The notes beneath the pieces are model-generated. The model searched no databases and was not told the DNA's origin. It worked only from the letters and a program-made list of their open reading frames with translations. Positions 10,616 to 45,855 of a stretch of DNA of 64,000 nt are shown one piece after another (position 1 is the first letter of the stretch; each line of letters opens with the position of its first letter). The stretch is from Acetobacteraceae bacterium (GTDB taxonomy: Bacteria > Pseudomonadota > Alphaproteobacteria > Acetobacterales > Acetobacteraceae). The stretch spans positions 1-64,000 of the forward strand of contig JAMXLO010000103.1 in assembly GCA_024280945.1 (NCBI GenBank). Direction: 5' to 3'. Position numbers and translations under genes: made by a program.

Positions 10616-10625
10616 CCGCCCCTCC

Positions 10626-10703
10626 GTCATGGCCGGCCTCCGTGCCGGCCATCAGTTCCACCGCAATGCCGCGAGCGATGGCCGGGACAAGCCCGGCCGT
10701 GAC
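10626..10703. repeat. REP-like double hairpin between murG and murC
   Basis: ATGGCCGGC (10629-10637) pairs perfectly with GCCGGCCAT (10644-10652) around a 6-nt loop. ATGGCCGGG (10678-10686) pairs with CCCGGCCGT (10692-10700) around ACAAG, with one mismatch. The outer ends GTCATGGCCGG and CCGGCCGTGAC are themselves inverted. This layout of two hairpins within an outer inverted repeat is like BIME/REP doublets. The hairpins lie between the murG stop and the murC ribosome-binding site and have no T-tract. They could stabilise mRNA or weaken coupling at this single gapped junction. Confidence 0.8.
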
Positions 10704-10718
10704 AGAAGAGGCTACCCT

Positions 10719-12152
10719 GTGAGAGCCCTCCCACTTTCCATCGGCACGATCCATTTCGTCGGCATCGGCGGCATCGGCATGTCGGGCATTGCCGAGGTGC
10801 TGCATAATCTCGGCTACTCGGTGCAAGGCAGCGATATCGCCGAGTCGGCCAATGTTCGTCGGCTGCGAGAGGCTGGCATTCCGGTGTCGATCGGCCACGA
10901 CGCGGCAAACCTCGGCAATGCTCAGGTCGTGGTCGTGTCATCCGCGGTGAAGCCCGACAACCCCGAAGTCGCCACGGCGCGCGTGCGGCTGATCCCGGTG
11001 GTGCGACGCGCCGAGATGCTGGCCGAGCTGATGCGGCTGAAGTGGTCGGTGGCGATCGGCGGCACGCACGGCAAGACCACCACCACCAGTCTGATCGCTG
11101 CGGTGCTGGAAGCCGCGCATCTCGATCCGACGGTGATCAACGGCGGTATCATCAACGCCTATGCCACCAACACGCGGATGGGCGCCGGTGACTGGATGGT
11201 GGTGGAGGCCGACGAAAGCGACGGCAGCTTCCTGCGCCTGCCGGCGGTGATCGCCGTTGTCACCAACATGGACCCCGAGCATCTCGACCACTGGGGCACA
11301 CCCGAAGCGATGGTTGCCGGCTACGACCAGTTCGTCGCCAACGTGCCGTTCTATGGCTTCGCCGTCCTCTGCATCGACCACCCCGAGGTGCAGCAGATGA
11401 TTCCGCGCCTGTCGGACCGGCGCATCATCACCTACGGCTTTTCGCCGCAGGCCGACGTACGCGCCGATCGCATCGTGCCCGACAAGCTTGGCTCGACGTT
11501 CGATGTCACCGTCACCGATCGCGCGCGCAACCGTTCGCGCAAGCTGGGCCCGTATCGCCTGCCGATGCTCGGCCAGCACAACGTGCAGAATGCACTGGCC
11601 GCGGTTGCCGTCGGCATCGAGATGGAAATCGATGACGACACGCTGCGCGGTGCCTTCGCCGGGTTCCGAGGCGTGAAGCGGCGCTTCACCAAGACCGGCG
11701 AGTCGGGCGGCATCACCGTCATCGACGATTACGGCCACCACCCGGTGGAAATCGCCGCCGTGCTGAAAGCCGCGCGCCAGGCCGGCGCACGCAACGTGAT
11801 CGCGGTGGTGCAGCCGCATCGATTCAGCCGTCTGCATTCGTTGTTCAGCGAGTTCTGCACCTGCATGAATGACGCCGGCACGGTCATCGTCGCCGATGTG
11901 TACCCGGCCGGTGAGGCACCGATCGAGGGCGTCAACCGCGACGCGCTGGTGGATGGGCTGCGCGCACGTGGCCATCGCAGCGTCGTGCCGTTGCCATCGC
12001 CGGTGCGTCTCGCCGAGATGGTCTATGCCATCGCCAAGCCAGGCGACTTCGTCGTCTGCCTCGGTGCCGGCAACATCACCCAATGGGCCGCCGCATTGCC
12101 GGGCGAACTGGCGGAATTGCAGAACCGCCGCATCGCCGGGAGCGCTGCATGA
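10719..12152 (+). CDS. murC: UDP-MurNAc:L-alanine ligase MurC
   Basis: MurC starts the peptide stem by ligating L-Ala to UDP-MurNAc. The 477 residues include the N-terminal [12 protein letters not shown] loop (residues 10-21), the ATP loop GGTHGKTTT from about residue 114, [10 protein letters not shown] near 162 and [10 protein letters not shown] near 337. I chose GTG 10719 because GAAGAGG lies 7 bp upstream and family homology begins there. The open frame continues upstream into the palindromic spacer and murG, but that stretch has no resemblance to MurC. The stop overlaps the murB start (ATGA). Confidence 0.96.
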
Positions 12153-13195
12153 ACCACCACCCCAACAAAATCCGGCCTCCCCCCGCGGGAGGGGAGCCTG
12201 CCCCGGACTTGATCCGCGGCCACGGGGAAGGGGCGCTGCCACCGCTACGTGGTCGCGTTCAAGTGCGTGCCCCGCTGGCACCTTTCACCTGGTTCCGCGT
12301 CGGCGGACCGGCCGAGGTGCTGGTACGCCCGGCAGACGAAATAGATCTCGTACAGTTCCTGCGCGCGCTGCCGCTCGACATTCCCGTGCATGTGATTGGC
12401 GCCTGCTCGAACCTGATCATTCGCGACGGTGGGCTGCCCGGCGTCGTGATCCGCCTGGCGCGAGGTTTCGGCGCAATCACCGTCGGTATCGACGGTGTGA
12501 TTGCCGGCGCCGCGGCGCTCGACGTGACCGTGGCTGAACATGCTGCTGCCGCCGGGCTGACCGGGTTGGAATTCCTCTCAGGCATACCGGGCAGCATCGG
12601 CGGTGCCGTGGTGATGAACGGCGGCGCTTATGGCGGTGATATCGCCTCCTGTCTCGAGTGGGCAGACATCGTGACGCGCACCGGCGCGCAACGCCGCATG
12701 ACAGCCGCGGATCTCGCCTTTGCCTATCGCCACTCACGTCTGCCGCAAGGTGCCGTGGTGGTACGCGCCCGACTGCGTGCGAAACCTGGCGCACCGGCGG
12801 CTATTGCAGCGCGCATGGCAGAAATCCGCACGGCTCGTGAGGCGTCGCAGCCGGTCCGTGCGCGAACCGGAGGATCGACCTTCCGCAATCCACCCGACAT
12901 GAAGGCGTGGGAACTGATCGACTCCACCGGCTGTCGTGGACTGACGCGCGGTGGTGCCCAGGTCTCCGAAAAGCACTGCAATTTCCTGATCAACACTGGA
13001 GATGCCTCTGCCGCTGACCTTGAAGGTCTCGGCGAAGAAGTGCGACGCCGCGTGCATGAGGCGACCGGCATAACGCTCGAATGGGAAATCCACCGCATCG
13101 GCGTGCCCGTCCCGTCAATCCCCCTCCCCTCGCGGGAGGGGCCTGCCCCGGACTTGATCCGGGGGGGAGGGGGGAGCGGGCAGTCCATCCCATGA
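12149..13195 (+). CDS. murB: UDP-N-acetylenolpyruvoylglucosamine reductase MurB, with repeat-derived ends
   Basis: MurB reduces UDP-GlcNAc-enolpyruvate to UDP-MurNAc using FAD and NADPH. The FAD-binding segments [12 protein letters not shown] and [19 protein letters not shown], catalytic Ser243 in GGSTFRNP, and the late Glu in LEWEIHRIG are all present. The ends are odd. Native-looking sequence (LPPLRGR...[13 protein letters not shown]) begins only near residue 30, and the preceding codons are a palindromic repeat translated as ...[10 protein letters not shown]. After the last family motif the C-terminus is a second copy, read in the same frame as ...[10 protein letters not shown]. The ATG at 12149 overlaps the murC stop and the gene stop overlaps ddl, so this frame is fixed by coupling. 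A later GTG (12263) would skip the first copy but truncate the conserved N-terminus. Confidence 0.95.
12174..12232. repeat. Palindromic element translated at the MurB N-terminus
   Basis: A GC-rich hairpin (CCTCCC...GGGAGG around 12178-12193) is followed by CCTG and an imperfect copy of the CCCCGGACTTGATCC-type palindrome (from 12201), then GGGGAAGGGG. The same order of modules recurs at 13121-13174 and, reversed, at 45793-45853. Here the element lies wholly inside the murB frame and adds about 20 codons. Confidence 0.8.
13119..13175. repeat. Palindromic element translated at the MurB C-terminus
   Basis: CCCCTCCC (13121-13128) and GGGAGGGG (13134-13141) pair perfectly around CTCGC. CCCCGGA (13146-13152) and TCCGGGG (13158-13164) pair perfectly around CTTGA. 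A GGGAGGGGGG tail follows. This is the most complete long-form copy in the window. It is read in the same frame as the copy at the MurB N-terminus and ends just before the ATGA overlap with ddl. Confidence 0.85.
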
Positions 13196-19872: not shown

Positions 19873-23705
<3,833 letters not shown>

Positions 23706-30140: not shown

Positions 30141-33728
<3,588 letters not shown>

Positions 33729-39995: not shown

Positions 39996-40091
39996 CTCCC
40001 CCTTCCCTTGCGGGAGGGGGTGAGGGGGAGGGGACCCGCGTCTATACGCAGACCCCTCCCCCCGCCCCCCTCCCGCGAGGGGAGGGGGAGT
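39996..40091. repeat. Head-to-head pair of short palindromic elements
   Basis: Two copies face each other: CCCCCTTCCC-TTGC-GGGAGGGGG (39998-40020) with GAGGGGGAGGGG after it, and on the right the mirror CCCCTCCCCCCGCCCCCC then CTCCC-GCGA-GGGGAGGGGG (to 40091). A short near-palindrome CGCGTCTATACGCAGA lies at the centre. The whole could fold into one long hairpin. It lies between the two permease genes and could stabilise the 5' mRNA segment and lower expression of the second permease. Confidence 0.8.
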
Positions 40092-40111
40092 AGTTCGTGC
40101 GATCTTCGCCG

Positions 40112-44702: not shown

Positions 44703-44805
44703 TCACACCAGGTGATCGGCCAGTAGTCGGTCATCGAGGGCAGCTGGGCTGCGACCGCCGACAGCGCGGCTTTTGTCAGGGCGCGTGCAACGCCATATTC
44801 GGCCG

Positions 44806-45855
44806 ATGGTCCCATTGTCCGTCCTCGACCTTTCTCCCATTACCGAAGGCAGCGATGCCGGGCAGGCGCTGCGCAACTCACTCGACCTCGCGCGGCATGT
44901 CGAGGCGCTGGGTTATCGGCGCTATTGGATGGCGGAGCACCACAATCTGCCGGGGATTGCCAGCGCCGCGACCGCAGTTGCGCTGGCCCACGTGGCGGCA
45001 GGGACACGCAGCATCCGCATCGGCGCCGGCGGCATCATGCTGCCTAACCATGCGCCGCTGCTGATCGCCGAGCAGTTCGGGACGCTTGCAGCGCTGCATC
45101 CAGGGCGCGTCGAACTCGGGCTGGGACGCGCGCCGGGGTCCGACCAGATCACTGCGCGCGCGATGCGGCGGACGCTACACAGTACGGGAGAGGAATTTCC
45201 GCAGGACGTCATCGAGCTGATGGAGTACTTCAAGCCGGTGGAGCCCGGGCAGCGCGTGCAGGCGGTTCCCGGCGCGGGGCTCGATGTGCCGATCTGGATC
45301 CTGGGGTCGAGCACGTTCGGCGCGCAGTTGGCGGCGTATCTCGGACTGCCGTTTGCATTCGCTTCGCATTTCGCGCCGGCGATGATGGTGGAGGCGATGG
45401 CGATCTATCGGCAGCGGTTCCGGCCGTCGGAGCAGCTGGCGGCGCCGCATGTGATGCTGGGGCTGAACATCGTCGCGGCGGAAAGCGATGACGAGGCGCG
45501 GTACCTGTTCTCGTCGTTGCAGCAGTCGTTCATCAATAGCCGCAGCGGACGGCCAGGGCCACTGCCGGCGCCGGTGGAAAATTTCGACGCGCATATCGAT
45601 CCGTATGCACGGGCGATGCTGGACGATGCACTGAGCTGCGCGATTGTCGGCGGTGCGCAGACGGTGCGGGAGGGGATGGAGGCATTCGTTGCGCGGACCC
45701 GGGCGGACGAGCTGATGGTGACGGCAAATGTCTTCGATCACGCGAAGCGGAAGCGATCGTTTGCGATCGTGGCGGAGGTCGCGGGGCTGGCTCCTCTCCC
45801 CATCCCCCCGGATCAAGTCCGGGGCAGGCTCCTCCCGCGCGGGGAGGGGGAGTAG
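44806..45855 (+). CDS. Luciferase-like monooxygenase (MsnO8/YhbW-type), repeat-derived C-terminus
   Basis: The 349-residue protein begins [20 protein letters not shown] and has [17 protein letters not shown] near residue 42, [15 protein letters not shown] near 70 and [13 protein letters not shown] near 103, which define the MsnO8/YhbW luciferase-like group. ATG 44806 was chosen from the family start. After about residue 326 the native sequence stops and the last 20 or so codons ([20 protein letters not shown]) come from a palindromic repeat read to the stop. Confidence 0.92.
45793..45853. repeat. Long-form palindromic element at the end of a luciferase-like gene
   Basis: CCCCGGA (45806-45812) and TCCGGGG (45818-45824) pair around TCAAG; CTCCCC precedes and CCTCCC-GCGC-GGGGAGG follows (45831-45847). 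This is the same composite as in murB, in the opposite orientation. It supplies the last codons and is followed by the TAG stop of the gene. Confidence 0.82.

Follow-up and report, generated by a model that had tools for sequence, protein, structure and literature searches.

In the window (the whole 64-kb stretch of DNA analysed), murB lies between murC and ddl and carries one composite palindrome near each end of its 348-aa reading frame. The features are as follows:

12149..13195, plus strand: murB, UDP-N-acetylmuramate dehydrogenase (NCBIfam NF010480 equivalog, 379 bits, residues 29-319)
12174..12236, plus strand: N-terminal composite palindrome (unit A 12176-12194, hairpin B about 12195-12219, degenerate 3′ arm about 12220-12235)
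13117..13186, plus strand: C-terminal composite palindrome (unit A 13119-13141, hairpin B 13142-13164, 3′ arm 13165-13181)

ATGA overlaps are present at both the murC/murB and the murB/ddl junctions, and the two palindromes form one direct-repeat family (D10; 12176-12219 versus 13121-13164) with 82% identity over 44 nt; both the overlaps and the presence of one copy at each end had been predicted originally. In the 64-kb window, the hairpin pattern was matched 3 times against a shuffle mean of 0.03, and the outer palindrome pattern 10 times against a shuffle mean of 0.29. The closest named MurB relatives place the host in Acetobacteraceae near Rhodopila, and when the host genome was searched for a second murB, the other matches fell on the repeat-encoded ends.

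The original prediction also held that both copies are read in one frame. This is true of the hairpin B half, which encodes PAPDLIRG in both copies, but not of the A half: the linkers between A and B (GGGAGGGGAGCCTG versus GGGAGGGGCCTG) differ by 2 nt, so that A gives PPPAGGE in one copy and LPSREG in the second. Both linker types were found again at other sites in the genome, which makes two separate insertions into murB likelier than the duplication of a single one.

We regard as rather unlikely the reading in which the N-terminal copy is untranslated, murB starts at an internal TTG or later, and the C-terminal copy alone is translated. Although an in-frame TTG (about 12209) lies within the N-terminal copy, in PDLIR, ATG 12149 has GGGAG upstream of it and overlaps the murC stop, as does the ATG of the same-genus orthologue L010. 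The codon-usage gene caller picked GTG 12263, a start that the original prediction had named as an alternative, and a published caution holds that many REPs placed at N-termini may lie outside the gene (PMC3733652); however, R34-G35-R36 (about 12248-12256), encoded ahead of this GTG, do not vary among 18 aligned MurB sequences, the host sequence included, and for this reason GTG 12263 is an unlikely start. The other alternative named at the outset, an early stop, was also checked, and no in-frame stop lies ahead of the C-terminal copy in the murB ORF.

In an AlphaFold2 model built with 18 sequences (mean pLDDT 76.0, pTM 0.63), most of the MurB core is folded, and pLDDT falls below 50 at residues 1-19 and 322-348. 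The model suggests that the tails are probably disordered, although low confidence would be expected there anyway, the tails being missing from the alignment. MurB presumably works with both tails, judging from a gene that is undamaged and sits in an ordinary mur operon. The same operon has a third repeat at 10625-10705, another palindrome with GTCATGGCCGG-type ends; it follows murG (stop about 10615) and precedes murC, whose probable start, GTG 10719, gives an N-terminus as in relatives.

Empty sites in MurB orthologues

The alignment of orthologues proposed with the original prediction did reveal empty sites. In a genome of the same genus (G001), MurB is 89% identical over the core and has both ATGA junctions and neither repeat; it starts as MTHPATRTPDFIATLPRLR and ends in AGKPEAVT*. 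In DNA alignments, the N-terminal copy adds 45 nt compared to the same-genus orthologue L010, and the C-terminal copy adds 60 nt compared to L010 and L040 and 48 nt compared to L042; the L040 row was unusable at the N-terminal site. Among 110 MurB loci (106 distinct core sequences, the host included), A or B was found only at the host locus when up to 3 mismatches were allowed within 160 nt of either end. Since the same-genus orthologue keeps both ATGA overlaps and is without the repeats, the sequence comparison indicates that a multicopy palindrome was inserted at both places in the murB reading frame.

In another Acetobacteraceae genome (L094), a different GC-rich palindrome lengthens the MurB C-terminus by about 40 residues, before ddl at about 2630. 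From its sequence, this extension is a possible parallel case at the same junction.

Structure and distribution of the repeat family

Unit A has a 36-nt GC-rich palindromic core, roughly CCCCCTCCCCTYGCGGGAGGGGG-NNN-GGGGGAGGGG in 98 copies lined up with at most 1 mismatch, and these copies typically start with CTCCCCC and end with GGGGGC. The search of the genome and its relatives proposed with the original prediction showed that the unit is multicopy, with 114 matches in the host genome (64 forward and 50 reverse), while the reversed control gave 0 matches there. Hairpin B (24 nt, AGCCTGCCCCGGACTTGATCCGGG) is nested in A in about 20 copies, giving a 60-nt core; these composites comprise 19 in the locus survey and the N-terminal murB copy, and B takes two positions in the G-run, 2 nt apart. 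B is preceded by CCTG in the host genome and by CGTC in copies from relatives (L175 and L180). In a DUF4159 gene (L164, about C111:47.67-47.77 kb), four copies of B follow one another in tandem at 24-nt intervals, and B therefore can multiply without A. Apart from the murB copies, the window contains the following members of the family:

45797..45853, minus strand: third composite, read in frame at the C-terminal end of a predicted luciferase-like monooxygenase, whose gene starts at 44773 or 44806 and ends at 45855
32726..32766, plus strand: simple A copy within a gene predicted to encode a 1176-aa double ABC transporter (30141-33671, minus)
21581..21621, plus strand: simple A copy upstream of a gene predicted to start at 21690
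39996..40100, no strand assigned: REPIN-like inverted pair of simple A units between predicted genes

Of 100 Acetobacteraceae genomes, the host included, 32 have at least one A match, most of them only 1-2 matches, and such low counts mean little. High counts are few (G015 171, host 114, G001 86, G102 60, G081 39, G003 38); two further genomes, G083 (28) and G087 (19), have many matches to the reversed control and none to A. B with the CCTG prefix (at most 3 mismatches) was found in 8 of the 100 genomes, including 29 matches in the host. G015 has 22, mostly with another prefix, and other genomes have at most 2; none with the CCTG prefix was found in G001, a genome only 73% complete. A distant blastn search of a plasmid collection gave no match to the element, and carriage by plasmids was rejected on this result.

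We surveyed the regions around 100 of the 114 A places, as listed, together with the composites; with the window, these make up 72 regions and 653,674 distinct bases. The surveyed regions contain at least 88 element loci, of which 19 are inverted A pairs (17 '+A -A' and 2 '-A +A'). According to gene calls by a codon-usage caller trained on the window, 24 loci lie inside genes, 4 partly inside and 38 between genes, and 22, including the N-terminal murB copy, lie ahead of the chosen start but still within a longest ORF. The 28 loci that overlap predicted genes, which include a variant hairpin without A that may be a chance match (C7:29290), compare with 76.6 expected at a coding fraction of 0.870. 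Thus, insertions into genes have mostly been removed or were never fixed.

Core lengths were counted for 62 single or composite elements, leaving out pairs and tandems and then excluding 10 elements in which no 3′ arm was recognised. The core length is divisible by three in 42 of the 52 measured elements, comprising 14/18 genic, 20/26 intergenic and 8/8 upstream-ORF elements; the C-terminal murB copy was scored as 53 because an earlier G-run was caught, whereas to the homologous arm it measures 60 (61 to a point one base further on), and the counts given here keep the original score. Since intergenic copies share the threefold length, it is a property of the element and not of selection in genes, and selection in genes was rejected as its origin. 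All six frames are open in 33 of 44 simple copies, and five are open in 14 of 18 composites. From these sequences, we take the open frames and the threefold length to be a contributing cause. A common frame as a sign of selection was also rejected: only hairpin B shares its frame between the murB copies, and the genes hit read the element in several frames.

Inserts in other proteins

Homologues were compared for 8 of the 27 genes that the elements overlap, and the others rest on the codon-usage caller. NarG, which gives a full-length TIGR01580 match, has an in-frame insert of 66 nt that is absent from 19/19 aligned homologues, with about 2 flanking residues apparently replaced. A DinG/YoaA-like helicase has 21 nt of hairpin B only, absent from 22/22 covering sequences (23 given), and a BatA/DUF4159 protein has 96 nt in four tandem 24-nt units, absent from 21/21 homologues. 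The DnaE2 insert is absent from 3/3 plasmid homologues. A YbbP-like permease has an insert in a variable region; it is absent from 17/17 covering sequences from 15 genes, two of them represented twice (20 sequences given). The DNA alignments of YbbP and of the L255 row were unusable, and YbbP was read from the protein alignment. For UbiG, the one homologous structure compared (4kdc) is about 10 residues shorter at the insert site. By sequence, the UbiG and YbbP-like inserts appear less clearly in frame than those in NarG, MutS, the DinG-like helicase, DnaE2 and the DUF4159 protein. Net insert lengths vary, and the alignments fix neither the borders nor a target duplication such as a MITE would leave. 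Further C-terminal copies, in Obg, a Y-family polymerase, Queuosine_synth, Kdo transferase and others, are predicted by the gene caller alone.

In MutS, the host genome carries an inverted A pair, and 18 of 19 relatives are without such an insert. In the sister species G001, mutS (L378) contains just one A unit, in frame and at the same site, which suggests that the MutS insert is probably older than the split of the two species and has been kept.

The 1176-aa gene with a simple A copy resembles a fusion of two ABC exporter halves, the first CydD-like and the second CydC/MsbA-like, and its A copy lies between the first membrane and ATPase domains.

Interpretation and relation to known palindromes

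From the copies, frames, empty sites and element lengths observed here, we consider it very probable that a REP-like mobile palindrome was inserted separately twice in murB and is tolerated inside proteins, as are RPEs and the intragenic REPs already published. The Acetobacteraceae element would consist of the 36-nt palindromic core A, in the host species often carrying the 24-nt hairpin B, and the family would have spread by copying into new places. It would persist mostly between genes, and in genes where it lands in frame at tolerant spots such as termini and variable loops; with core lengths mostly multiples of three and most frames open, it would be unusually frame-compatible. Host proteins, MurB included, would gain about 7 to 40 residues, probably disordered or on the surface, and keep working. 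By inference, the cell makes the predicted insert-bearing proteins in active form, the inserts are nearly neutral in effect and the element is still moving.

Another reading takes the murB-junction repeats as regulatory RNA or DNA elements that act in coupling, mRNA stability or termination among murC, murB and ddl, with translation incidental. Both repeats lie at gene junctions of the operon, the native sequences alone fold at -32.1 and -46.8 kcal/mol, and REPs near a stop codon can reduce translation (PMC12306157). However, the same family occurs away from junctions in NarG, MutS, DnaE2 and the DinG-like gene, and the sister species is without either murB copy, so that we find this reading rather unlikely. 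It is very unlikely that the inserts were recruited for a function, as flexible linkers or interaction tails held by selection: although two species of one genus have an insert at the same MutS site, the peptides and frames vary between genes, the compared homologues are without the insert in all cases except MutS, and genes are avoided overall. An assembly or binning artefact is extremely unlikely even in a genome of 156 contigs, where repeats are prone to misassembly, given that the frames are open through the inserts and that a second genome of the genus has A at the same MutS site.

Rickettsia palindromic elements (RPEs), named in the original prediction, are a fitting comparison. They are palindromic repeats that lie in frame in many conserved genes and also between genes (PMC2229807, PMC3733652), and in-frame palindromes are known in Rickettsia and cited for Wolbachia (PMC2229807, PMC6649704). 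Likened to RPEs by description, the present element shares the in-frame genic position with empty orthologous sites, whereas its cores of 36 nt (A) and 60 nt (A with B) are outside the RPE size of 105-146 bp (PMC2229807) and its 6.4-Mb host genome belongs to another family. Size alone is indecisive, since RPE-4 and RPE-6 are themselves shorter, being counterparts of short CGTC repeats (PMC3733652). With REPIN/RAYT systems, the family shares short GC-rich palindromes and inverted pairs; in contrast, no Y1_Tnp (PF01797) match at E <= 0.001 was found in the host genome (99% complete), in a search that gave matches in 5 of 14 control genomes, and a RAYT-driven REPIN was rejected on this basis. MIRUs of mycobacteria are repeats at overlapping stop and start codons that extend reading frames. 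By that description, the present element shares with them the junction position and the frame extension.

E. lithoralis and S. alaskensis are Alphaproteobacteria. These two are among several species with REPs lying wholly within ORFs (PMC3733652), and thus the original claim that no comparable system had been described is not supported, at least in kind. The same source reports that more than half of the intragenic REPs are dimers or groups encoding 20-30 aa, that many lie in genes for DNA synthesis and repair, dnaE2 included, and that CGTC is the tag of one REP superfamily (PMC3733652). The present repeat family shares short stem-loops, high copy number, a mostly extragenic location, a partial occurrence as dimers and the presence of both single and paired units in ORFs with the GTAG/CGTC REPs, but the ends of unit A carry neither tag, and B follows CCTG and is nested inside A; hairpin B resembles the hairpins that follow CGTC in relatives (L175, L180). 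The principle of intragenic palindromes is therefore not new, with published REPs in ORFs and also in DNA-repair genes (PMC3733652). What is new here is an untagged family, a nested module, the lack of a detected Y1_Tnp transposase and the double insertion in MurB. A literature search covering few subscription papers found no description of the A/B family and no report of in-frame palindromes in the host lineage.

These results suggest that protein-coding palindromes are not peculiar to a few published lineages, and the element reaches MurB, a respiratory nitrate reductase and several DNA-repair proteins. The same-genus genome supplies empty sites (MurB, DinG-like, DUF4159) and one common filled site (MutS), and such clean filled and empty pairs make the effects of the inserts on enzymes directly testable. 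As a RAYT seems to be absent, one may ask which agent copies the element. Tentatively, the two-level palindrome in whole codons (36-nt A, 24-nt B) might act as a frame-neutral cassette: B would enter A and genes alone, AB would spread further, and the family, owing to lengths divisible by three and to mostly open frames, would leak into essential and DNA-repair proteins, the copying agent being something other than a Y1_Tnp RAYT.

DNA-repair genes with the element encode DnaE2, a Y-family polymerase, AddA, the DinG-like helicase and MutS (L355, L361, L324, L155, L329). Enrichment of such genes (5/27 genes, P 0.0002 to 0.004) is not claimed, since these P values depend on an assumed background share of 2-4%. 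The five genes hit here echo the repair-gene REPs of PMC3733652.
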